A stretch of DNA of 64,000 nt, taken from Siphonodentalium dalli. Lineage: Eukaryota; Mollusca; Scaphopoda; Gadilida; Siphonodentaliidae. The stretch lies in NCBI GenBank assembly GCA_032622095.1, contig CP136065.1, positions 245,645,474-245,709,473 on the forward strand. The letters run 5' to 3'. Of this stretch, positions 8,312 through 63,234 are shown piece after piece; position 1 is the first letter of the stretch, and the number at the start of each line of letters is the position of its first letter. Under the pieces are notes generated by a model, which had not been told where the DNA came from, did no database searches, and worked only from the letters and a program-made list of their open reading frames with translations. The translations under genes and the position numbers were made by a program.

Positions 8312-8505
8312 TATCTAATTTGTATTTCGCTAAAATTTATATTTAGAAAAAACATGATTATCCATTGTGAGATCGTTGAATCCAAATGACGGACCAAAAC
8401 TTATTGATCGAAATTTACAACAACTGACCAAAAGTTCATAATTTTTGTTAACAATCTTACAAATATATACTTTATGTGATATTATCAACCTAATGTGGTT
8501 TTTAC

Positions 8506-8834
8506 CCGAATGAGACTTCAGGAGGTGTTCCATCAACAATCTTCATTTTATGCCAGCCAATTCCTCTCCTCTCTCCTTTGTAAGCAACAACGCCAACTTT
8601 ATAATCATGTCCCGAAATGAAGTTCTGAGCAGGAATTGTGATTTTTCCATTTGATGACCCCGCTGTGTATATCTTGTCGGGATCATTGCTGAAGCAGCCT
8701 CCATTTGGATAAACAACAGAGGGGAAGGAGCTTGATAGGATTGGTGAGCCGGGCATAATCTGCCAGCTTCGTTCATCCGGCAGCACATATGGAACGTCCG
8801 CCTTGTGGCAAAACCAGATGAAATCTGTGAAACC
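8506..8834 (-). CDS. Exon h: REJ module
   Basis: 329 bp. Acceptor GCAATTATTCCAG|GGT and donor TTCGG|GTAAAA. It begins GFTDFIWFCHKADVPYVLP: the W-x-C strand that pairs with the SYDPD motif of exon g. It later has DKIYTAG and KITIPAQNFISGHDYKVGVV, matching the REJ pattern 'l-x-I-p-x-x-x-L-x-x-g-x-x-Y-x-v-x-V'. It leaves two bases (GG), completed by A at the start of exon i to give Gly. Intron 7 before it is 16.9 kb, the longest of the window. Confidence 0.93.
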
Positions 8835-9488
8835 CTGGAATAATTGCATAGAGGCAATCAGTGATTGATCTTGAGTGATTTTGGACTAGCTATATATATA
8901 AGAGGGTTATCATCCCCTATTCCTTGGAATCCGGCTTTGAAAAATACATGGAATGGAGGATCTATATGAGGAATATATTAATTATTTTGCAGAAAAACAT
9001 AGAGTATACCTCCAGTTTTGTTTGAATACCAAAATATCTCATGAGTATCTGGAAAGAAATATAAAATTTTCACGAGTGGCTACAAGCAGCGAGTTAAAAT
9101 TCAATATTTCTTTCAGACACAAATGAGATGTTACAGGTATTCAATAAAAACTGTAGGTATTCTTTTTATTATATGCACATTATTAACCCTTTCAGCGAAA
9201 CCGCAAAAATTTATGCCAAAGAAATCAAACAATTCATAGTGTATAACCATGGAGATCTGATGTCAAAATATATTAAAAGAAAGGAAAAGTCCATAGTGGA
9301 TCTCAGCTGTCACTAATAGCATTTAATAAATTAGAGATTCAGTTTTACGGAAATCACTTTATTCAAATTAATACCAAATTCATAAAATATAACTCATGGT
9401 TAATACTGCAATGGTACATGTATATTAATATAATAAAAATATTGCTACTGTTTGACAAGTTGAGATAATAAATGCAGCATATGTGTTG
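8835..9488. other. Start of intron 7, nothing recognised
   Basis: Unique AT-rich sequence upstream of the exon h acceptor. No exon, RNA gene or clear repeat seen. Confidence 0.45.
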
Positions 9489-25651: not shown

Positions 25652-25691
25652 CTGTGTACTAAAATAATATCGCTGCATGTTATTTACTCAC

Positions 25692-26065
25692 CTGATCCGC
25701 ATTTGGGTCAATGTCCGGATCGTATGAGAATTTTGCCGCATCCAGCACAATACTTCCTGAATCGGTGCCATACACAGCATAGTCCACTGCTGCTGGCTTC
25801 GCACTTATCGGCGTATGATCGATCTCAAAATAGCCACACACCATCCTGCTAAAGACCTCGCCTGGGCCGAATTTAGACTCGTCCATATCCACACTGTATG
25901 AGAACTTATAACGGCCGTAGTCAAGTTGTCTTTTCTGTATTAGTAAGTCAGCTTTATCGTGTGAGTCGATGTTGGATAGATCGACTTCCCCAATCGAATC
26001 GCACGTGTTTGGGTCAATTTTCCACATCTTCCATTCCTTTTTATTGACAGATGTTACGTTGCAGT
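25692..26065 (-). CDS. Exon g: REJ module
   Basis: 374 bp. Acceptor CATCTATTCACAG|AC and donor GATCAG|GTGAGT. The split codon G|AC gives Asp, so the junction reads TRI-D-CNVTSVNKKEW; an Asp-Cys followed by W-x-I is the pattern at the start of the REJ Ig-like subdomains. NKKEWKMWKIDPNTC and SIVLDAAKFSYDPDIDP follow; the latter is the conserved 'L-D-a-x-x-S-Y-D-P-D' REJ motif. It ends in phase 0 and continues directly in exon h. A truncated C element ends 40 bp beyond the donor. Confidence 0.93.
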
Positions 26066-26087
26066 CTGTGAATAGATGGAGAAAAAA

Positions 26088-28137: not shown

Positions 28138-28163
28138 TAATGACAAATATTCATAGTACTAAC

Positions 28164-28635
28164 CTATACGTGTCCCGGACAGTATCTGTATGTTTTTACT
28201 TTTGTGAACTTTGTAGGGTGCATTACAGCTTGCTGTGCATAGACCAACTGGATAATTTGGAAAATTCATCCCAGGTGGGTTACAATCGGCATTGGAAGCT
28301 GTCACGATCTCGGTCAAGGTGGTCGATGAGCCTGCATTGGTGACCGTCACAGTAATTGTGTATGTTCCTGCATGAGGGTAGGTGTGGCTAATAGATTTGG
28401 TCAGACCAATGGACCATGGCTCATTGTACTGCGTTGACCCATCACCCCAAATGATCACCAGTGTCGACGCGCTGCCAAGACTCTCAAGTGATAACGACAA
28501 GGTCACTGTCATTCCATCACGAACCAAATTGCTTATCTGAATGTTGCGGTTGAAATCTATGACTCGAATGTTGACAGACTTCGATACTGATTTAATTGGA
28601 TTAAGCGCCGTCACATCAATACTGAAGTCTCCAAT
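28164..28635 (-). CDS. Exon f: canonical PKD repeat and start of REJ module
   Basis: 472 bp. Acceptor ATTTATTGACAG|ATT and donor ATAG|GTTAGT. Phase 0 in, one base out. Residues 1-30 (IGDFSIDVTALNP) close the repeat begun in exons d-e. Residues ~35-120 form the most typical PKD domain of the window, with IIWGDGSTQYNEPWS as the FGDG turn and HTYPHAGTYTITVTVTNAG as the signature strand. From DCNPPGMNFPNYPVGLC the sequence changes to the Cys/Pro-rich start expected of an REJ module, ending SKNIQILSGTRI. An A hairpin ends about 25 bp past the donor. Confidence 0.93.
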
Positions 28636-28710
28636 CTGTCAATAAATGATACAAAATTATATAACTCGCTAAGTCTTCGCAGTTACAGCACAAGCCTGGA
28701 TATACAGTAT

Positions 28711-33925: not shown

Positions 33926-33954
33926 CTGCAAAGTTAACATACTATCAGTGAACC

Positions 33955-34737
33955 AAGCTCTCCCAGTCTGACCACGCTCCTCCCACAAGCTCTCCCAGTC
34001 TCACCACGCCCCTCCCACAAGCTCTCCCAGTCTCACCACGTCCCTCTCACAAGCTCTCAAAGTCTCACTACGCCCCTCCCACAAGCTCTCCCAGTCTCAC
34101 CACGTCCCTCTCACAAGCTCTCCCAGTCTCACCACGTCCCTCTTACAAGCTCTCCCAGTCTCACCGCGCTCCTCCCACAAGCTCTCCCAGTCTCACCACG
34201 CCCCTCTCACAAGCTCTCCCAGTCTCACCACGTCCCTCTCACAAGCTCTCCCAGTCTCACCACGCCCCTCCCACAAGCTCTCCCAGTCTCACCACGTCCC
34301 TCTCACAAGCTCTCCCAGTCTCACCGCGCTCCTCCCACAAGCTCTCCCAGTCTCACCGCGCTCCTCCCACAAGCTCTCCCAGTCTCACCACGCTCCTCCC
34401 ACAAGCTCTCCCAGTCTCACCACGCCCCTCCCACAAGCTCTTCCAGTCTCACCACTTCCCTCCCACAAGCTCTCCCAGTCTCACCACGCCCCTCTCACGA
34501 GCTCTCCCAGTCTCACCACTCCCACAAGCTATCCCAGTCTCACCACGCCCCTCCCACAAGCTCTCCCTGTCTCACCGCGCCCCATCCCACAAGCTCTTCC
34601 AGCCTCATCAGGCTCCTCCCACAAGCTCTCCCAGTCTCGCCACGCCCCATCCCACAAGTTCTTCCAGCCTCATCAAGCTCCTCCCACAAGCTCTTCCAGC
34701 CTCATCAGGCTCCTCCCACAAGCTCTCCCATCTCACC
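33955..34737 (+). repeat. 32-bp minisatellite, ~24 copies
   Basis: Unit CACAAGCTCTCCCAGTCTCA followed by CCACGCCCCTCC. C/T-rich on this strand, so G/A-rich in the pre-mRNA; each unit has two or three GGG runs there. It starts 30 bp upstream of the exon e acceptor and fills almost half of intron 4. Confidence 0.93.
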
Positions 34738-35689: not shown

Positions 35690-35864
35690 GATTCGTTCCA
35701 GCTGGTTGGAAGTTTTGTAAGTCGAAGATGGTTATTTGCAGTCTGGGTACAACGTAATAGTTGCCGTCCGGCCTCGGTGCATCGATCGAGGGGCCATCCA
35801 TAGGATAAATATCCTTGTATTGTGGCTGCACTGTGAAGTCTGTGATGTCATAAAATATCCCGTT
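35690..35864 (-). CDS. Exon d: PKD-like segment
   Basis: 175 bp. Acceptor AATTATTTTTCAG|AAC and donor AATC|GTAAGT. Phase 0 in, one base out. It starts NGIFYDITDFTVQPQYKDI and contains NYYVVPRLQITIFDLQNF, two hydrophobic-alternating stretches like the opening strands of a PKD repeat. An intrarepeat linker (MDGPSIDAPRPDG) is unusually Pro/Asp rich. The fold is completed in exons e and f. No Cys is present. A-family hairpins lie on both sides (35316-35528, 35935-36147). Confidence 0.85.
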
Positions 35865-39564: not shown

Positions 39565-42500
39565 GTTTTCCAATGAAATTTAAAACAAATTTATAGCTCC
39601 CATTTAGTGGTCACTACGAAGATCAATATGATGTTTGGTGACAGTCGGATGAGGAATGTGGTATGTAGGTGTACCAAAGGAGTTAGTCATGCAAAGAGTA
39701 AAATCCCAGATGGCTGCCAGTGGCCATGTTTCTAAACAAAATTTGGAAAAATTAGATGACACCCATCTAGTGGTCATACCAAAGATTCATATGAAGTTTA
39801 AAGATGATGGGTGACGGCTGTCGTCTGCAGGGAGTGCCAGGATTAAAATCCAAAGAGTAATATCCAAGTGTTTTACAACGAAATTCAAAAATATGGCTCA
39901 CATCTAGTGGTCACCCGAAAGATCCATATGAAGTTGGTGACGATCGGATGGGTGATGGTGTCTGTACGGTGTGCCAATGGATTTAGTAATGCAAAGAGTA
40001 AAATCCAAGATGCTGACGGCAGCTTTCATAAAAAATTTATCAAATTTGATAGCTCCCATCTAGACTGGTAAACAAGCCTGTAAATGTTCATAACAATTCC
40101 CCAAATAAATGCGGGCTGCAGGGTATGCAGATATATTCAAATTTGAAATCAGTGATGGCCACTGGTGGCCATGTTTTTTCACAAATTTTGGAAATAGAAG
40201 TATGGGTCCCATCTAGAGGTCACCCTGAAGGTCAGTATGAAGTTTGGTGATGATCGGAAGAGGGAGGTGGCCTGTAGGTAAAATCCAAGATGGCTGCCGG
40301 CGGAATGTCAATGTTAACTTCCATGACAAATTTGATGATGATCAGACCAAGAGTACAGCCTGCAGCCCGTGATAATGTATTGAATATTGAAATCCAAGAT
40401 GGCCGATGCAGTCATGTTTTATTGACGAATGATCCCAAAAATGACTCATTCCAATCTACATGTCAATGTTAACAGCCATGACAAATTTCATAATTATCCG
40501 ATCAAAGGTACGACATGTAGCTCGTGCCAAAGGATTTAGTCAAGCAAAGAGTAAATCCAAGATGGCTGCCCGCAGCCATGTTTTATGGCCTAATGACCCC
40601 AAAATGACTCGTTCCCATACAAATGTCAAAGTTAGGTGATGATTGGAAGAGGGAGGTGGCCTGTAGGGTGTGCTGAAGGATTTAGTCATACAAAGAGTAA
40701 AATCCAAGATGGCGGCCAGTGGAATGTCAATGTTAACAACCATGACAAATTTCATGATCATCAGACCAACAAAACGGCCTGTAGCCCATGCTAATGGATT
40801 GAATTATGAAATCCAAGATGGCTGCTGGTGGCCATGTTTTTTCCCGAATGACCACAAAATGACTCGTTCTATGTCAATATCAACAGCCATGACAAATTTA
40901 ATGAAAGTGTCAATGACACTGTAGCTCAACTTGGAAAGGGAATAATTTAATATATTACAGTCAATGGAGCGATTAGGAATGTGGAAAGTTGAATGTCTAA
41001 TACTAGTTTATAGACATGAAGAGAAAAGTAAAATCCAAGATGGCTGCTGGCGGCCATTTTTTCGGCCGAATGACCCCAAAATGAGTCGTTCCCATCTACA
41101 TGTCATCGTTAACATCAATGACAAATTTTATGACGATCAGACTAAAGGTACGACCTGTAGCCCATGCTATAGAATTTAGTCATACAAAGAGTAAAATCCA
41201 AGATGGCTGCTGGCGGCCATGTTTTTTGGCCGATTGACCCCAAAATGACTCGTTCCAATCTACATGTCATTGTTAACATCCATGACAAATTTGATGATGA
41301 TCAGACTAAAGGTACGACCTGTAGCCCATGCTAAAGAATTTAGTCATACAAAGAGTAAAATCCAAGATGGCTGCTGGCGGCCATGTTTTTTGGCCGAATG
41401 ACCCCAAAATGACTCGTTTCCATCTACATATCAACATTAACATCCAGGACAAATTTCATGATGATCAGACGAATCGTACGACCTGTGGCCCGTGCTAATG
41501 GATTAAATTTTGAAATCCAAGATGGCCACTGGCGGCCATGTTTTTTGTCTGAATGACCCCAAAATGACTTGTTCCCATTTACATTCCAATTTCAACAGCC
41601 AAGAAAATTTTTATGATGATCAGACTAAAGGTACGACCTGCAGCCCGTGATAAAGAATTTAGTCATACAAAGAGTAAAATCTAAGATGGCTGCTGGTGGC
41701 CATGTTTTTTGTTGGCCGAATGACCCCAAAATGACTCGTTTCCATCTACATATCAACATTAACATCCAGGACAAATTTCATGATGATCAGACGAATCGTA
41801 CGACCTGTGGCCCGTGCTAATGGATTAAATTTTGAAATCCAAGATGGCTGCTGGCGACCATGTTTTTTGGCCGATTGACCCCAAAATTACTCGTTCCCAT
41901 CTACATGTCATTGTTAACATCCATGACAAATTTTATGATGATCAGACTAAAGGTACGACCTGCAGCCCGTGATAAAGAATTTAGTCATACAAAGAGTAAA
42001 ATCTAAGATGGCTGCTGGTGGCCATGTTTTTTGGCCGAATGACCCCAAAATGACTCGTTCCAATCTACATGTCATTGTTAACATCCATGACAAATTTGAT
42101 GATGATCAGACTAAAGGTACGACCTGTAGCCCATGCTAAAGAATTTAGTCATACAAAGAGTAAAATCCAAGATGGCTGCTGGCGGCCATGTTTTTTGGCC
42201 GAATGACCCCAAAATGACTCGTTTCCATCTACATATCAACATTAACATCCAGGACAAATTTCATGATGATCAGACGAATCGTACGACCTGTGGCCCGTGC
42301 TAATGGATTAAATTTTGAAATCCAAGATGGCCACTGGCGGCCATGTTTTTTGTCTGAATGACCCCAAAATGACTTGTTCCCATTTACATTCCAATTTCAA
42401 CAGCCATGAAAAATTTTATGATGATCAGACTAAAGGTACGACCTGCAGCCCGTGATAAAGAATTTAGTCATACAAAGAGTAAAATCTAAGATGGCTGCTG

Positions 42501-44335
42501 GTGGCCATGTTTTTTGTTGGCCGAATGACCCCAAAATGACTCGTTTCCATCTACATATCAACATTAACATCCAGGACAAATTTCATGATGATCAGACGAA
42601 TCGTACGACCTGTGGCCCGTGCTAATGGATTAAATTTTGAAATCCAAGATGGCTGCTGGCGACCATGTTTTTTGGCCGATTGACCCCAAAATTACTCGTT
42701 CCCATCTACATGTCATTGTTAACATCCATGACAAATTTTATGATGATCAGACTAAAGGTACGACCTGCAGCCCGTGATAAAGAATTTAGTCATACAAAGA
42801 GTAAAATCTAAGATGGCTGCTGGTGGCCATGTTTTTTGGCCGAATGACCCCAAAATTACTCGTTCCCATCTACATGTAAATATTATCATCCATGACAAAT
42901 TTCATAATGATCAGACAATCAGTACGACCTGTGGCCCGTGCTAATGGATTAAATTTTGAAATCCAAGATGGCCGCTGGCGGCCATGTTTTTTGTCCGAAT
43001 GACCCCAAAATGACTCGTTCCCATCTACATTCCAATATCAACAGCCATGACAAATTTTATAATGATCAGACTAAAGGTACGACCTGTAGCCCGTGCTAAA
43101 GGATTTAGTCATACAAAGAGTAAAATCCAAGATGGCTGCTGACGGCCATGTTTTTTGGCCGAATGACCCCAAAATGACTCGTTCCCATCTACATGTCATT
43201 ATTAACATTCTTGACAAATTTTATGATGATCAGACTAAAAGTAGGACCTGTAGCCCGTGCTAAAGGATTTAGTCATGCAAAGAGTAAAATCCAAGACGGC
43301 TGCTGGCGGCCATGTTTTTTGGCCGATTGACCCCAAAATGACTCGTTCCAATCTACATGTCATTGTTAACATCCATGACAAATTTGATGATGATCAGACT
43401 AAAGGTACGACCTGTAGCCCGTGCTAAAGAATTTAGTCATACAAAGAGTAAAATCCAAGATGGCTGCTGGCGGCCATGTTTTTGGGCCGAATGACCCCAA
43501 AATTACTCGTTCCCATCTACATGTCAATATTAACATCCATGACAAATTTCATGACGATCAGACGAACAGTGCGACCTGTGGCCCGTGCTAATGGATTGAA
43601 TTTTGAAAACAAAGATGGCCACTGGCGGCCATGTTTTTTGTCCGAATGACCCCAAAATGACTCGTTCCCATCTACATTCCAATTTCAACAGCCATGATAA
43701 ATTTCATGATTATCAGACTAAAGGTACGACCTGTAGCCCGTGCTAAAGGATTTAGTCATACAAAGAGTAAAATCCAAGATGGCTGCTGGCGGCCATGTTT
43801 TTTGCCCGAATAACCCAAAAATGACTCGTTCCCATCTACATGTCATTGTTAACATCCATGACAAATTTTATGACGATCTGACTAAAGGTACGACCTGTAG
43901 CCCGTGCTAAAGGATTTAGTCATGCAAAGAGTAAAATCGAAGATGACTGCTGGCGGCCATGTTTTTTGGCCGAATGACCTCAAAATTACTCGTTCCCATC
44001 TACATGTCAATATTAACATCCATGACAAATTTCATGACGATCAGACGAACAGTCCGGCCTGTAGCCCGTGCTAATGGATTGAACTTTGAAATCTAAGATG
44101 GCCACTGGCGGCCATGTTTTTTTTCCGTATGACCCCAAAATGAATCATTCCGGTACAAATGTTGATGTCAACAGCTATGACAAATTTCATAATGATCCGA
44201 TCAAAGGTACGACCTGTAGCCTCTATTGTTGACGCGTTACGTACACACGCACACACGCACACACGCACACACGGACGACGGACGACAAAGCCATGGCAAT
44301 AGCTCAAACTTTACAAAGTAAAGTTGAGCTAATAA
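39565..44335 (+). mobile_element. Pearl/Helentron-like element (3), expanded
   Basis: About two dozen direct ~161-bp core repeats. Each has AATCCAAGATGGCTGCTGGC, CCGAATGACCCCAAAATGAC and ATGACAAATTTCATGATGAT in order. Divergence is high at the left and low between ~41000 and ~44000. Five-unit blocks are duplicated at an 805-bp offset. The right end has an ACGC/GGACGAC microsatellite (44238-44288) and a hairpin TAGCTCAAACTTTAC / GTAAAGTTGAGCTA (44300-44331). Non-autonomous. Confidence 0.8.
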
Positions 44336-44765: not shown

Positions 44766-47700
44766 GTGAACCATGACACATCATCTTTCATCATTACTTA
44801 ATTGTACGTAAAATGGGATTTTCGACCCAGGGTTGAAGATTTTCCCGTTACAATGTATGATGTGCTGGGATGACTCCTCATCTATAATCATTACTTACTT
44901 GTATTTTAAATGGGATTTCCGACCCAGCGTTGACGATATTTCCCGTTATGTGTGATTGCTAGGACGACTCCTCATCTATAATCATTACTTACTTGTATTT
45001 CAAATGGGATTTCCGACCCAGCATTGAAGGTTTCCCCGTTATGATGCATGATGTGCTGGGAAAACTCTTCATCTATAATCGCTACTTACTTGTATTTCAA
45101 ATGTGATTTCCGACCCAGCGTTGAAGATTTTTCCCATTATGATGTATGATGTTCTGGGACGACTCCTCATCTATAATCGCTACTTACTTGTATTTCAAAT
45201 GAGATTTCGGACCCAGCGTTGAAGGTTTTTCCCCGTTATGATGTATGATGTGCTGGGACGACTCCTCATCTATAATCGCTACTTACTTGTATTTCAAATG
45301 GGATTTCCGACCCAGCGTTGATGATTTTTCCCCGTTATGATGTATGATGTTCTGGGACGACTCCTCATCTATAATCGCTACTTACTTGTATTTTAAATGG
45401 GATTTCCGACCCAGTGTTGACGATATTTCCCGTTATAATGTGTGATTGCTAGGACGACTCCTCATCTATAATTATTACTTACTTGTATTTCAAATGGGAT
45501 TTCCGACCCAGCGTTGATGATTTTCCCCGTTATGATGTATGATGTGCTGGGACGACGCCTCATCTATAATCGCTACTTACTTGTATTTCAAATGGGATTT
45601 CCGACCCAGCGTTGAAGGTTTTTCCCCGTTATGATGTATGATGTGCTGGGACGACTCCTCATCTATAATCGCTACTTACTTGTATTTTAAATGGGATTTC
45701 CGACCCAGTGTTGACGATATTTCCCGTTATAATGTGTGATTGCTAGGACGACTCCTCATCTATAATTATTACTTACTTGTATTTCAAATGGGATTTCCGA
45801 CCCAGCGTTGATGATTTTCCCCGTTATGATGTATGATGTGCTGGGACGACTCCTCATCTATAATCGCTACTTACTTGTATTTCAAATGGGATTTCCGACC
45901 CAGCGTTGAAGGTTTTTCCCCGTTATGATGTATGATGTGCTGGGACGACTCCTCATCTATAATTATTACTTACTTGTATTTCAAATGGGATTTCCGACCC
46001 AGCGTTGATGATTTTCCCCGTTATGATGTATGATGTGCTGGGACGACTCCTCATCTATAATCGCTACTTACTTGTATTTTAAATGGGATTTCCGACCCAG
46101 TGTTGACGATATTTCCCGTTATAATGTGTGATTGCTAGGACGACTCCTCATCTATAATTATTACTTACTTGTATTTCAAATGGGATTTCCGACCCAGCGT
46201 TGAAGGTTTTTCCCCGTTATGATGTATGATGTGCTGGGACGACTCCTCATCTATAATTATTACTTACTTGTATTTCAAATGGGATTTCCGACCCAGCGTT
46301 GATGATTTTCCCCGTTATGATGTATGATGTGCTGGGACGACTCCTCATCTATAATCGCTACTTACTTGTATTTTAAATGGGATTTCCGACCCAGTGTTGA
46401 CGATATTTCCCGTTATAATGTGTGATTGCTAGGACGACTCCTCATCTATAATTATTACTTACTTGTATTTCAAATGGGATTTCCGACCCAGCGTTGAAGG
46501 TTTTTCCCCGTTATGATGTATGATGTGCTGGGACAACTCCTCATCTATAATCGCTACTTACTTGTATTTTAAATGGGATTTCCGACCCAGTGTTGACGAT
46601 ATTTCCCGTTATAATGTGTGATTGCTAGGACGACTCCTCATCTATAATTATTACTTACTTGTATTTTAAATGGGATTTCCGACCCAGCGTTGACGATATT
46701 TCCCGTTATAATGTGTGATTGCTAGGACGACTCCTCATCTATAATTATTACTTACTTGTATTTCAAATGGGATTTCCGACCCAGCGTTGACGATATTTCC
46801 CGTTATGTGTGATTGCTAGGACGACTCCTCATCTATAATTATTACTTACTTGTATTTCAAATGGGATTTCCGACCCAGCGTTGACGATATTTCCCGTTAT
46901 GTGTGATTGCTGGGACGACTCCTCATCTATAATTATTACTTACTTGTATTTCAAATGGGATTTCCGACCCAGCGTTGATGATTTTCCCCGTTATGATGTA
47001 TGATGTTCTGGGACGACTCCTCATCTATAATCGCTACTTACTTGTATTTTAAATGTGATTTCCGACCCAGCGTTGAAGGTTTTTCCCCGTTATGATGTAT
47101 GATGTGCTGGGACGACTCCTCATCTATAATCGCTACTTACTTGTATTTCAAATGGGATTTCCGACCCAGTGTTGATGATTTTTCCCCGTTATGATGTATG
47201 ATGTTCTGGGACGACTCCTCATCTATAATCGCTACTTACTTGTATTTTAAATGGGATTTCCGACCCAGTGTTGACGATATTTCCCGTTATAATGTGTGAT
47301 TGATAGGACGACTCCTCATCTATAATTATTACTTACTTGTATTTCAAATGGGATTTCCGACCCAGCGTTGATGATTTTCCCCGTTATGATGTATGATGTG
47401 CTGGGACGACGCCTCATCTATAATCGCTACTTACTTGTATTTCAAATGGGATTTCCGACCCAGCGTTGAAGGTTTTTCCCCGTTATGATGTATGATGTGC
47501 TGGGACGACTCCTCATCTATAATCGCTACTTACTTGTATTTTAAATGGGATTTCCGACCCAGTGTTGACGATATTTCCCGTTATAATGTGTGATTGCTAG
47601 GACGACTCCTCATCTATAATTATTACTTACTTGTATTTCAAATGGGATTTCCGACCCAGCGTTGATGATTTTCCCCGTTATGATGTATGATGTGCTGGGA

Positions 47701-48757
47701 CGACGCCTCATCTATAATCGCTACTTACTTGTATTTCAAATGGGATTTCCGACCCAGCGTTGAAGGTTTTTCCCCGTTATGATGTATGATGTGCTGGGAC
47801 GACTCCTCATCTATAATTATTACTTACTTGTATTTCAAATGGGATTTCCGACCCAGCGTTGATGATTTTCCCCGTTATGATGTATGATGTGCTGGGACGA
47901 CTCCTCATCTATAATCGCTACTTACTTGTATTTTAAATGGGATTTCCGACCCAGTGTTGACGATATTTCCCGTTATAATGTGTGATTGCTAGGACGACTC
48001 CTCATCTATAATTATTACTTACTTGTATTTCAAATGGGATTTCCGACCCAGCGTTGAAGGTTTTTCCCCGTTATGATGTATGATGTGCTGGGACAACTCC
48101 TCATCTATAATCGCTACTTACTTGTATTTTAAATGGGATTTCCGACCCAGTGTTGACGATATTTCCCGTTATAATGTGTGATTGCTAGGAGACGACTCCT
48201 CATCTATAATTATTACTTACTTGTATTTTAAATGGGATTTCCGACCCAGCGTTGACGATATTTCCCGTTATAATGTGTGATTGCTAGGACGACTCCTCAT
48301 CTATAATTATTACTTACTTGTATTTCAAATGGGATTTCCGACCCAGCGTTGACGATATTTCCCGTTATGTGTGATTGCTAGGACGACTCCTCATCTATAA
48401 TTATTACTTACTTGTATTTCAAATGGGATTTCCGACCCAGCGTTGACGATATTTCCCGTTATGTGTGATTGCTGGGACGACTCCTCATCTATAATTATTA
48501 CTTACTTGTATTTCAAATGGGATTTCCGACCCAGCGTTGACGATATTTCCCGTTATGTGTGATTGCTGGGACGACTCCTCATCTATAATTATTACTTACT
48601 TGTATTTTAAATGGGATTTACGACCCAGCGTTGACGATATTTCCCCGTTATGATGTATGATGTGCTGGGACGACTCCTCATCTATAATTATTACTTACTT
48701 GTATTTCAAATGGGATTTCCGACCCAGCGTTGAAGATTATTCCCGTTATGATGTACG
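44766..48757 (-). repeat. Tandem array derived from exon c 3' end and splice donor
   Basis: About 40 units of 90-101 bp. On the minus strand each unit has ~58 bases matching the end of exon c (CGCTGGGTCGGAAATCCCAT, TTGAAATACAA), the donor GTAAGT, ~34 intron bases (TTATAGATGAGGAGTCGTCC) and a short joint (CCAGCACATCA or CTAGCAATCACAC). Two length types alternate. Blocks are re-duplicated, for example 46200-46640 reappears at 47760-48200 (offset 1560). Only the first unit in transcription order (48699-48757) is joined to the rest of the exon; the leftmost unit (44790) is decayed. Confidence 0.92.
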
Positions 48758-48922
48758 ATCCCAGATAGGTTTGCTGAGTGCTGATCACAAAAGACGGGAA
48801 GATGAATGCTTCCTTATGAAACATGCCATTGGGGAGCATCCAGCTGATGTCGGCATCGCCTGCTGCCAAAGTCCCAGTATGCGTGATGGTGGCGTCGTTA
48901 CTGACTGGGAACGTCTGTGGTT
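48699..48922 (-). CDS. Exon c: PKD repeat; 3' end amplified in intron 3
   Basis: 224 bp. Acceptor CTTTGGTTTGCAG|AA and donor ATACAA|GTAAGT. AA completes the split codon (G|AA, Glu), giving EPQTFPVSNDATITHTGTLA; the exon ends in phase 0. DISWMLPNG sits in the WGDG position of a PKD repeat, and TYLGSYIITGIIFNAGSEI aligns with the closing strands of the PKD repeat in exon f (TYPHAGTYTITVTVTNAG). The last ~58 coding bases (48699-48757) and the donor are the rightmost, transcriptionally first unit of the tandem array that fills the next 4 kb of intron. The bases right of 48757 are not found in the array, so the boundary is sharp. Confidence 0.88.
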
Positions 48923-49753: not shown

Positions 49754-51091
49754 TCACTGGCTATTCTCAGAATCGCTGTCAATCACACGAATTCTCCTTC
49801 GTTTTGGTTCAGTTGTACTTTTATCTTGGTTATAGATGTTGACGTTTATGGTTCCTCCGGATATGGCACCTCCAAAAACTGTTATAGATTTGCTGTACAG
49901 CTGTGCATTTAGTTGTTTTGATAGTCCCACCAATTCGGGAACGACCAATGAAGGAGTGGGCGAACTGTTATTTACATCAACAGTCATTTCCTGTGAAGTC
50001 GAAGGTCGACAGGTTGGGAAATCACCGTGTTTCAAACTTTCCTTCGTGGAGATATCGTTGCTCAGAATTTTGGATATGTTACGGTGTTGTTCGTCATTTA
50101 GGTGACTGTAATTATTTATTGATGCCAGGTTTTTGTGTCCAGTGATCTGTATTATTTGAGTTGGAGGAATATTTGATTCACTGAGTTTCTGAACAAGATG
50201 TTTTCGGGCACTGTGATTTGTGAGCCTTTTCTCGGAAGACAGACCAGCTGCTTTTGCCATTCTTTTCATGATCGAGGTGAGTTTATTTACACCCGCTGGC
50301 TGTCGTTTGCACCAAGCTTGCCTTGATATGTATGTGTTGCTATGTAGAATGGGTCGGTAGGTTTACAGTAGTTCTTTGGTCTGAGTTCTGCAAATTTCTT
50401 GTAGACAGAAACAGGGCAACGATCTACATTTGATATTGCCCACATTTTTGGCTTCACTGCCCTTACATCTCTGGGATTTTAATATCGATTCTGGTGATGA
50501 TGTACCGAAACACGAAGACTCCCACAGTTTCTCTATTTCATCATCATTTATTGGGTCAGATTTCCTGGCAAGGTTACCTAGACCTTGACCTTTTAAGCTT
50601 TTCTGTTTAGCCTTTAACACTTCGCGAACTTTCATGAATTCTGTGCTTGTAGCTATTTGAAAACCATAATCACACCGTTTCAACTCTCTGTCAAAACTGG
50701 ACATAAATCCACGTAATGTTGATGGTTCATATTCAGCCCCTCCTTGTTTCCTGACCCCGAGAAAGAACTTGCTTAAAATAAGGCACAGCTGATCTGGCGA
50801 AATTTCATGGATGGGTCTGTCAATATTAATCTGAGGACTATGCATGAACGATTTAAGGAGTTTCATGTCATAATATGTTTTTGAGAGAGTACTTTTATTG
50901 ACCTGGGCGTCTACATAATCTTGAATTTCTGTAGTAGGCACAAATATAAATCTTTCGTCATCAGTGTTTACGTTTTGCGAGTTCACACGTGTCGTCTGAT
51001 TCTGAATGAGTGACAGCCTTTCTTGTTTCAAATTCACCGTGAAGTCAATTCCATCCAACGAAAATGGCCCCGTGTGTTGATTGAATAACAC
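49754..51091 (-). pseudogene. Crypton-type tyrosine recombinase, degenerate
   Basis: Two frames on the minus strand. The upstream frame (51091-50363) carries the N-terminal/core-binding region typical of animal Crypton and KIAA1958/ZMYM-like (DUF3504) proteins: LCLILSKFFLGVRKQGG, EYEPSTLRGFMSSFDRELKR, then MKVREVLKAKQKSLKGQGLG. The downstream frame (50269-49754) has the C-terminal catalytic block: H-S-A-R (His19, Arg22), GHKNLASINNY (His45, nucleophile Tyr54), then a ~110-residue tail ending RRRIRVIDSDSENSQ. Between them RCPVSVYKKFAELRP is readable in another frame, so two frame changes are present (~50440 and ~50320). The block with the first catalytic Arg is missing, only ~25 codons remaining where relatives have about 90. 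Not functional as it stands. Confidence 0.82.
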
Positions 51092-51365
51092 GTTCTATCT
51101 TCCCAACGCCTTCATTGTCTATTTTGACTGACGATCCTACACTGCTACAGCGTACATATTAACATCGGAATTCGGATCACATGTCGACATTTTTATTTTG
51201 TAAACAGAGCAGAAATAGTTCCGGTATTGACATCGATATGATGATATCATTGCGCTAAGCACCGCGCGTGCGTCATCTCACATGGCGATAATACACGTGT
51301 CTTACTCAAAATTATTAAACCGGATATAGTGACTAATTATGTGATAAAACAATTTATTACATGAC

Positions 51366-56935: not shown

Positions 56936-57127
56936 CACTTATGATCTTGATATGATTAGTCGGGATAGTAAACTCAGATGCCAAAACGGGATTCACACAC
57001 GAGAACAGCGTGTTAAAATTAACAGTCTCGATCGGTGACGTCAGCGTGGCACTAAGAGTACGGGTCATCGCCACACCACAAGTTGTATATGTCATGTTCC
57101 AGGCATCGTAACCATCTTCCCATCGCC
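56936..57127 (-). CDS. Exon b: PKD-like segment
   Basis: 192 bp. Acceptor GTAAATTTCAG|GG and donor AGTG|GTGAGT. The split codon G|GG from exon a reads Gly, followed by RWEDGYDAWNMTYTTCG. The exon ends after ...HIKIIS plus one base, which completes as Glu in exon c. It completes the third PKD-like repeat: the tyrosine/Cys-rich stretch and IETVNFNTLFSCVNP have the beta-strand pattern, but the canonical H-x-Y motif is missing, so the repeat is divergent. A piggyBac-like P element ends 18 bp beyond its donor. Confidence 0.88.
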
Positions 57128-62699: not shown

Positions 62700-63234
62700 C
62701 TTCTCTATATTTAGTAACAATTCCATTTCCGTCATCGAGATCGGCATTAATGTGAAGGTCAAGTGATGTCGGTGCTCTGTAGATCACCAGTCGCATCTCT
62801 ACCTCCAGATTAATCGGAATCACCGTAAACGGCGGGCGAAGTTCCCATCTCGGGTTGTCAATCCTTTCCAAAATCTTTACCGTTGTTTCTAAATTTAGAG
62901 AGCTAAGTTCGTTGTAGACTTTTGCCGTGACGTTGAAGATCCCTGTATCTTGGTATGTGTGCATTTGAATGACATTCTCATTAAAATCCACAGTATTTAT
63001 AACACTTTCCCCGTAAACAACTGCCAAACTGTCAGCATAATCAAAATCTATCTTTGCGTCAATCACTGGATCCCCGCCTGTATGATTAAAATAAAACTCG
63101 ACCACAGTTGGTGGGTTGAAGAGCTTTCCTTCAGGAAGTTCAGCATTCGACCAGAAATCAATGTTCTCAATCCGAGAGAAGACCTCAATTGTAAACGTTT
63201 TCTCGTATGATTTGATTGAGTTGGCAACATGCAC
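62700..63234 (-). CDS. Exon a: PKD repeats
   Basis: Largest exon, 535 bp. The acceptor TTCTTGTTACAG lies just right of 63234 and the donor AAG|GTTAGT starts at 62699. It enters in phase 0 and leaves one base of a split Gly codon. The first ~30 residues (VHVANSIKSYEKTFTIEV) look like the last strands of a PKD repeat. Residues ~45-125 form a full PKD-like fold with HTYQDTGIFNVTAKVYN in the place of the family's H-x-Y-x-x-x-G-x-Y-x-V motif; the usual WGDG turn is replaced by DFDYAD. From NPRWELRPPFTVI a third repeat begins and continues in exon b. The preceding exon must end in phase 0 and lies beyond 63234; none could be placed securely. Confidence 0.9.

Follow-up and report, generated by a model that had tools for sequence, protein, structure and literature searches.

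An intronic minisatellite made of an exon end and its 5' splice site in a polycystin-1-like gene of Siphonodentalium dalli

The locus and its host gene

The window, by which we mean the whole stretch of 64,000 nucleotides that was analysed (C5:245645474-245709473, within a searched genome of 2.23 Gb in nine contigs), carries on its minus strand the exons of a polycystin-1-like gene (Table 1). Exons a to d are open frames, and their splice sites, as read by eye, have the compatible phases 0-1, 1-1, 1-0 and 0-1; a small exon between d and e was probably missed. Exon c is flanked by an intron of 8.0 kb upstream and one of about 12.8 kb downstream, and it is in the latter that an array of repeated splice donors lies.

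Table 1. Features of the locus, in positions of the window
Feature	Position	Strand	Remarks
Exon a	62700..63234	-	phase 0 to 1; PKD match PF00801, E 8.2e-5, 23.0 bits, just under the cut-off of 23.5; boundaries read by eye
Exon b	56936..57127	-	phase 1 to 1; boundaries checked; paralogues exist
Exon c	48699..48922	-	224 nt; PKD-like; phase 1 to 0; boundaries checked; ends CAA|GTAAGT; array derived from its last 58 nt
Predicted hairpin of exon end and intron start	48659..48731	-	donor at the tip; similar pairing along the array
True 5' splice site of exon c, GTAAGT	48693..48698	-	GT at 48698; first of 40 identical donors
Donor-bearing minisatellite	44796..48698	-	units of 94-99 bp; 39 intact extra GTAAGT and one decayed TTAAGT (44801-44796)
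Exon d	35690..35864	-	phase 0 to 1; 3' boundary of the array-bearing 12.8-kb intron; boundaries read by eye
Open frame containing exon e	28159..28638	-	PKD domain, PF00801, E 1.3e-13
Open frame with exon bearing a partial REJ domain	25680..26087	-	PF02010, E 5.6e-5, 22.4 bits against a cut-off of 25

Besides the partial REJ domain of the table, a second REJ piece at 8502-8885 scores 19.9 bits, under the cut-off of 25. Downstream of the window exons and on the same strand there is a REJ match above the cut-off (C5:245628506) and, further on, a match to the PKD channel (C5:245522000, 157 bits). From their strand and order we infer that the PKD, REJ and channel pieces are one gene; it would then have PKD repeats, REJ and PKD channel together, which is the combination of the polycystin-1/REJ family.

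The PKD nature of exon c itself needs a comment, as Pfam run on this exon by itself finds no PKD match. We base the assignment on the paralogues that align with it (see below) and on a profile comparison of its duplicated coding part with the PKD repeat of exon e plus a paralogue, for which hhalign gives a probability of 73 and an E of 3.1e-5 with profiles of 3 versus 2 sequences. The claim of the initial annotation that the coding part resembles another PKD repeat of the same gene is thus backed by profiles, though Pfam alone is silent on it. A PDB search with exon c returned no hits at E up to 10, the structure predicted from its single sequence has a mean pLDDT of 47.6, and an Rfam scan of the window gave no match at the gathering score.

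Anatomy of the array

Split at its donors, the array has 41 donor positions. Exactly TACAAGTAAGT is found at 40 of them, and the last, at 44801, reads TTAAGT, so that the distal-edge unit, D40, has lost its donor. Elsewhere in the window GTAAGT occurs at most once per strand in any 4-kb bin. We agree with the initial annotation that some 40 tandem copies of the end of exon c and its donor stand in a row, namely 40 identical donors counting the true one, which is the first of them, plus the decayed unit. Its figures for the content of a unit (58 coding bases, the GTAAGT donor and 34 intron bases, the first and last being approximate) are also correct, and the alignment of exon c with the units extends over 58 coding bases at the end of the exon and on into the start of the intron. 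TRF calls the repeat at 44781-48759 with a period of 99 (294 and 393 also scored), 40.8 copies and 90% matches. Unit lengths of 94, 97, 98 and 99 bp alternate along a total of 3.9 kb.

The 40 donor-to-donor units comprise 21 distinct sequences, and the 39 core units have a mean pairwise identity of 91%. This distinctness argues against a simple assembly artefact as far as the sequence can tell, the copy number being that of one assembly. The array seems to have grown both by units and by blocks, because an alignment of two hand-delimited blocks (1562 and 1854 nt) has 1561 aligned bases with 44 mismatches, plus one gap of 285 bp and four gaps of 1-4 bases, and because the longest exact repeat within the array reaches 469 bp. 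With its head-to-tail units, tens of bp long and situated between exons c and d, this is an intronic minisatellite. The word "satellite", under which the array was initially described, is right in that the tandem array is real, but it is loose for about 98 bp times 40 at a single place.

Which came first, the exon or the array?

A 30-mer spanning the donor has 36 exact matches in the genome, all 36 at this locus, and none for the reversed control. A query of 198 bases, in a search that skips very common words, has 18 matches, again all at the array. As a positive control for the same tool we used the neighbouring 164-bp repeat of the same intron, which was found on 8 of the 9 contigs (40 scored out of 1056 first-look candidates); the 164-bp array that lies next to the donor array is, then, a dispersed repeat. 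We reject the identity of the donor array as a dispersed satellite or transposon, since within the limits of these searches it was found at one locus only.

Two further polycystin-1-like genes (P1 and P2) lie in tandem on C5, as indicated by channel and REJ matches and by weak exon matches (E 0.004 to 0.04). In one of them there is a candidate for the exon that follows exon b, c' (stretch L009, near 245416800), with PKD-like spacing; c' was chosen by eye, and unrelated frames reached the same alignment score of 30. The candidate in the other is c'' (stretch L012, near 245212100), found with a profile of c and c' at an E of 4e-4 among the frames of nine loci; the score of c' against this same profile carries no evidence, as c' is part of it. 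As read by eye, both paralogous exons have phases 1-0, the exon b before each of them ends in phase 1, and all three exons end 20 residues past the aligned PKD glycine, c' and c'' at a GTGAGT donor. The paralogues are distant, with 24% and 15% identity to exon c, and Pfam PKD hits to c' and c'' are weak (E 0.064 and 0.038). After neither paralogous donor is there an array: the best match to the unit in stretches L009-L014 and L017-L019 is 12 bases long. Other tandem arrays in stretches L009-L014 have different units.

Since the paralogues have the exon without the array, the array occupies a single locus and the coding part aligns with PKD repeats, the exon end is old and the array a later growth in one gene copy. 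Judged by these sequences, the exon end was the source of the array, as the initial annotation had thought most likely, and not a later recruit. That a satellite came first and the exon end was recruited from it is rejected on the array-less paralogues and on the single-locus result of the searches described. Two observations had been named that would have pointed to such a recruitment. One, an array at many unrelated loci, was looked for genome-wide, with one locus as the outcome; the other, an exon end without similarity to the array in related species, was approached with paralogues in place of species, and these do have the corresponding exon, without an array. A tree of the units with exon c as a member had also been suggested. 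We built it by maximum likelihood, but its support is low and it does not decide the origin; the terminal branch of exon c (0.114) is the second-longest after that of D40 (0.254).

Coding potential and types of splice site

If exon c is read on to a later donor position, an in-frame stop intervenes for each of the 40 positions. The register is preserved in 26 of 40 units; in these, codon changes with respect to the exon are of 8 non-synonymous kinds and 1 synonymous kind, and because they are mostly non-synonymous we see no sign of coding constraint in the array. A YAG is present in 38 of 40 units, in a context that is, by eye, pyrimidine-poor.

A recursive splice site is a juxtaposition of AG and GT, an acceptor abutting a donor. 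The context of the array donor is ACAA/GTAAGT, and AGGT does not occur in the 3898 nt of the array, which excludes an array of recursive or of dual-specific (UBC type) splice sites in their usual form.

All 39 core units share an identical donor 9-mer, while 32 of 101 columns vary, for which the chance under random placement of the variable columns is 0.027. The longest invariant run among these units is of 15 columns (chance 0.059). Because the units are not independent, we take the invariance of the donor as only a weak hint of constraint.

A predicted hairpin at the donor

For the 73 nt that surround the exon c donor, the predicted fold has -21.8 kcal/mol, against a mean of -10.9 (sd 2.7) for dinucleotide shuffles, of which 1 in 500 is as low. 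The donor comes to lie at the tip, with a mean unpaired probability of 0.74 versus 0.41 for 200 random 9-mers; five other donors of the host gene have values of 0.21-0.60 (the position used for the REJ exon donor being one base off). Folds at the other junctions, with z of 1.7 for exon a, 1.0 for b, -0.5 for d, 0.1 for e, -0.3 for c' and -1.1 for c'', contain no comparable hairpin. Six units were folded singly: D09, D12, D38 and D39 have z of -2.9 to -4.3, D37 has -1.3 and D40 has 0.9. Against any specialness of the fold, a plain energy this low or lower is also reached by 145 of 2818 random 73-mers drawn from the window outside the array.

In 19 distinct rows of 41, the 23 predicted pairs are kept in 94.3% of 437 cells, compared with 35-48% when the structure is slid, a percentage that uses a structure derived from the same sequences. 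Covariation of pairs is weak: 2 of 23 pairs are changed on both sides, in one row each, and both come from the decayed unit. Since the outer stem is missing in D40, it probably formed together with the array. A near-palindrome centred on the donor may have favoured slippage during amplification.

Possible exchange between the exon end and the array

When exon c is compared with D09, which is among the closest units, differences fall in 4 of the 25 columns upstream of CAACGC, a shared gap counting as one, and in none of the following 65 (Fisher 0.005). These 65 identical columns comprise the final 34 bases of coding sequence, the donor and the start of the intron. The same test of a break gives Fisher values of 0.001 for D07, 1e-5 for D02 and 1.0, that is no break, for D37, the four units having been chosen after viewing the alignment. 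In its intron half the unit of exon c has the AATAAT state, as do D01-D05, while D38-D40 at the distal edge have AATGAT. At the level of sequence, the pattern suggests past exchange of the exon end with inner units, by which coding bases and a real donor would join the concerted evolution of an intronic array.

U1 pairing and the genome background

We scored 42 U1 genes in this genome, all above the cut-off, and one gene read by eye begins with ATACTTACCTGG on its strand, a matching 5' end. The predicted pairing of the array donor with U1 (-7.6 kcal/mol) is the weakest among six host-gene donors compared, the others having -8.3 to -13.9; for the paralogous donors it is -5.5 (c') and -8.1 (c''). 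As a ladder we defined three CAAGTAAGT/AAGTAAGT motifs at gaps of 78-104 bases, searched genome-wide, with the reversed pattern as control. Counted by pattern alone, 203+101 = 304 matches, this locus included, stand against 188+85 = 273 for the reversed pattern. A genome-wide excess of GTAAGT ladders is hereby rejected, and donor-like ladders among the minisatellites of this genome are near background. What is unusual is an array that starts at, and is made from, a real junction of exon and donor.

The most likely explanation

In our opinion the locus is probably the product of a neutral tandem duplication that straddled a donor. A stretch comprising the 3' end of exon c and the 5' splice site would have been duplicated in tandem, and unequal exchange would then have amplified the duplicate to about 40 units. 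For the spliceosome, exon c would extend from its upstream acceptor to the closest donor, the first of the row, and all other copies would be removed with the 12.8-kb intron, leaving a largely silent and self-erasing intronic minisatellite. The coding part would remain intact because all copies are downstream of the first donor and nearly all carry a donor themselves. It is known that for near-equal donors between long flanking introns the upstream donor tends to be preferred: among near-equal pairs overall the upstream one is chosen in 60%, and the upstream preference is seen in the long-long class, according to the available text of PMC9225289. Given that the introns flanking exon c are long (8.0 and 12.8 kb) and the donors are alike, the first donor is expected to win. 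We infer its use, the near-neutrality and the mechanism of amplification. The tolerated accident is the best of the three options that the initial annotation had proposed.

Several observations go against this explanation. The invariant donor 9-mer is, as said, a weak hint of constraint; a strong donor hairpin with its pairs kept in most rows is not what neutrality alone predicts; the preference for the proximal donor is a tendency only; and the paralogous exons are distant, c' having been picked by eye.

The other two options of the initial annotation concern U1. As a splicing decoy, U1 bound along the array would compete with the true donor or form dead-end complexes, and by retention of the intron or mis-splicing of the exon the gene would be kept low or regulated. 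There are indeed 40 identical donors, and for the 39 extra ones the mean probability of being unpaired is predicted as 0.74, versus the 0.41 of random 9-mers. However, known decoys also bear 3' splice sites, for which the pyrimidine-poor YAG of 38 units is what the array has to offer; its donor has weaker pairing with U1 than any of the five other host-gene donors; and neither ladders of this kind nor a GTAAGT-bearing tandem array as such are unusual in this genome. We find the decoy role unsupported and think it unlikely. Still less likely, by about half, is that array-bound U1 suppresses premature polyadenylation in this intron (telescripting). The genome does have U1 genes, one of them read with a matching 5' end, and polyadenylation signals can be suppressed by U1 at an authentic or cryptic donor in their vicinity, as described in the available text of PMC5499120. 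On the other side, AATAAA and ATTAAA are absent from the array and number 6 and 7 in the remaining 8.9 kb of the intron, fewer per kb than in the three neighbouring introns, so these counts give no special need for protection. The range in the fly, about 500 nt in the same source, would moreover leave most of the intron beyond the array out of reach. This option, too, we consider unsupported.

The putative exchange between exon and array allows a further reading, in which the array is a reservoir of spare donors: the last 34 or so coding bases and the donor would be renewed from it, a damaged donor could be replaced, and the exon end would evolve together with non-coding DNA. The breaks seen with D09, D07 and D02 (Fisher 0.005, 0.001 and 1e-5) and the AATAAT state that the unit of exon c shares with D01-D05 rather than with D38-D40 are in its favour, but D37 has no break, the units were picked post hoc, uneven mutation could yield the same pattern, and exchange as a by-product is no proof of benefit; we regard the reservoir as improbable, to much the same degree as the decoy. 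Equally doubtful is a broader version in which the array is both a recombinational reservoir and a device that presents its own donor, with a hairpin-prone junction copying itself, exchange renewing the donor and exon end, and an exposed U1 ladder strengthening or tuning the definition of exon c. The least probable reading of all, in our view very improbable, is that some units are spliced in as exons of 60-63 nt, each adding a copy of the last PKD strand. Such mini-exons are suggested by 17 of 40 units (counted from the listing) that have a YAG and then an open phase-0 stretch of 60 or 63 nt up to the donor. The other 23 units, however, are out of phase, contain stops or have no YAG, most kinds of codon change are non-synonymous, the context of the acceptor is poor in pyrimidines, and from a donor to the next YAG there are, by eye, about 34 nt. 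A coding mini-exon cluster is not supported, as only those 17 units are open, in phase and provided with a YAG, and as non-synonymous changes prevail.

Significance and relation to known systems

The neutral duplication that we prefer suggests a testable general rule: if the copies go out with the intron, as expected, a duplication straddling a donor should be silent for the protein at any copy number. For this reason donor-straddling arrays should also outlast duplications that add coding sequence. The choice among equal splice donors is usually studied with few competing sites. The locus is a natural test of this choice, with 40 identical donors in a row and two array-less paralogues as built-in controls. 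This exon-derived intronic minisatellite, real, well resolved and most likely neutral, has a clear experimental use.

Among the matches listed in our literature search, which covered few subscription papers, none concerned an array grown from a gene's own donor. The VNTR in intron 6 of human TERT (38-bp repeats) is likewise a lineage-restricted intronic tandem array of tens of copies, and it bears on splicing; however, according to the available text of PMC3948165, its distance from exon junctions exceeds 1 kb and it works through RNA pairing, whereas the present array begins at a splice junction and consists of it. That text makes no mention of an origin from an exon-donor boundary. In polyubiquitin UBC, splice sites are repeated with the unit, as they are here, and PMC10809524, in its available part, argues that an expansion does less harm when it can be spliced out, the expansion in UBC being tolerated since extra units can be spliced out. 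The UBC units are coding and bounded by AGGT, used as donor or acceptor (same source), whereas the present copies are intronic, partly broken in frame and devoid of AGGT. Tandem duplications that create introns also copy a splice motif within a gene, but they make a new intron; here the boundary is older, being common to the paralogues, and the duplication has only lengthened the intron.

The decoy exons of retained introns, such as that of OGT, are likewise mostly unused splice sites inside a long intron, the usage in our case being the expected one. They have both 3' and 5' sites and a demonstrated effect on retention, as reported in the available text of PMC12017769, whereas the present array is a putative decoy at most. 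Finally, the donor hairpin of tau exon 10 is, like the predicted one, a stem-loop at a 5' splice site, formed by the end of the exon together with the start of the intron. The tau stem has about seven pairs (PMC6720520, available part), whereas that of exon c is predicted to have 23, with the donor mostly in the tip, and is repeated along the array.

Other repeats and neighbouring genes

The host intron, the 12.8-kb intron with the donor array, carries a second tandem array, and a similar array is found in the corresponding region of P1, a tandem polycystin-1-like paralogue (positions 1-2523 of the fetched stretch L010). The 164-bp repeat of the host-intron array is dispersed, with copies on eight of the nine contigs among the 40 scored of 1056 candidates. 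Elsewhere in the window, the open frames of a 32-bp array are a product of repetition and no evidence for a gene.

One of the two frames before exon c matches a tyrosine recombinase (PF00589; 49754-50362, minus strand, E 1.6e-10), and together they resemble a Crypton-like mobile element.

Three polycystin-1-like genes stand in tandem, all on one strand, at 244.99-245.71 Mb of C5, the contig of the window; additional REJ matches lie elsewhere on C5 (169.2, 171.0 and 213.3 Mb) and on C8.

Coordinates of the features (plain numbers are window positions; C2 to C5 are contigs)
Feature	Position	Strand	Remarks
Second tandem array	41027-44221		periods 164/319/483 bp; host intron, downstream of donor array
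32-bp tandem array	33954-34737		all three plus-strand frames open, 262-302 codons
Two open frames	49754-51094	minus	intron preceding exon c
Channel domains, three tandem polycystin-1-like genes	C5: 244995943, 245291195, 245522000
GTAAGT-bearing minisatellite	C5:232574104-232575433		44-bp units
Further GTAAGT-bearing minisatellites, examples	C4:45624487; C3:83328501; C2:159975229

Among the matches listed, GTAAGT also recurs in unit after unit of other minisatellites of the genome. A tandem row of U1 snRNA genes, spaced about 2.15 kb apart, lies at C1:103842444-103879156.
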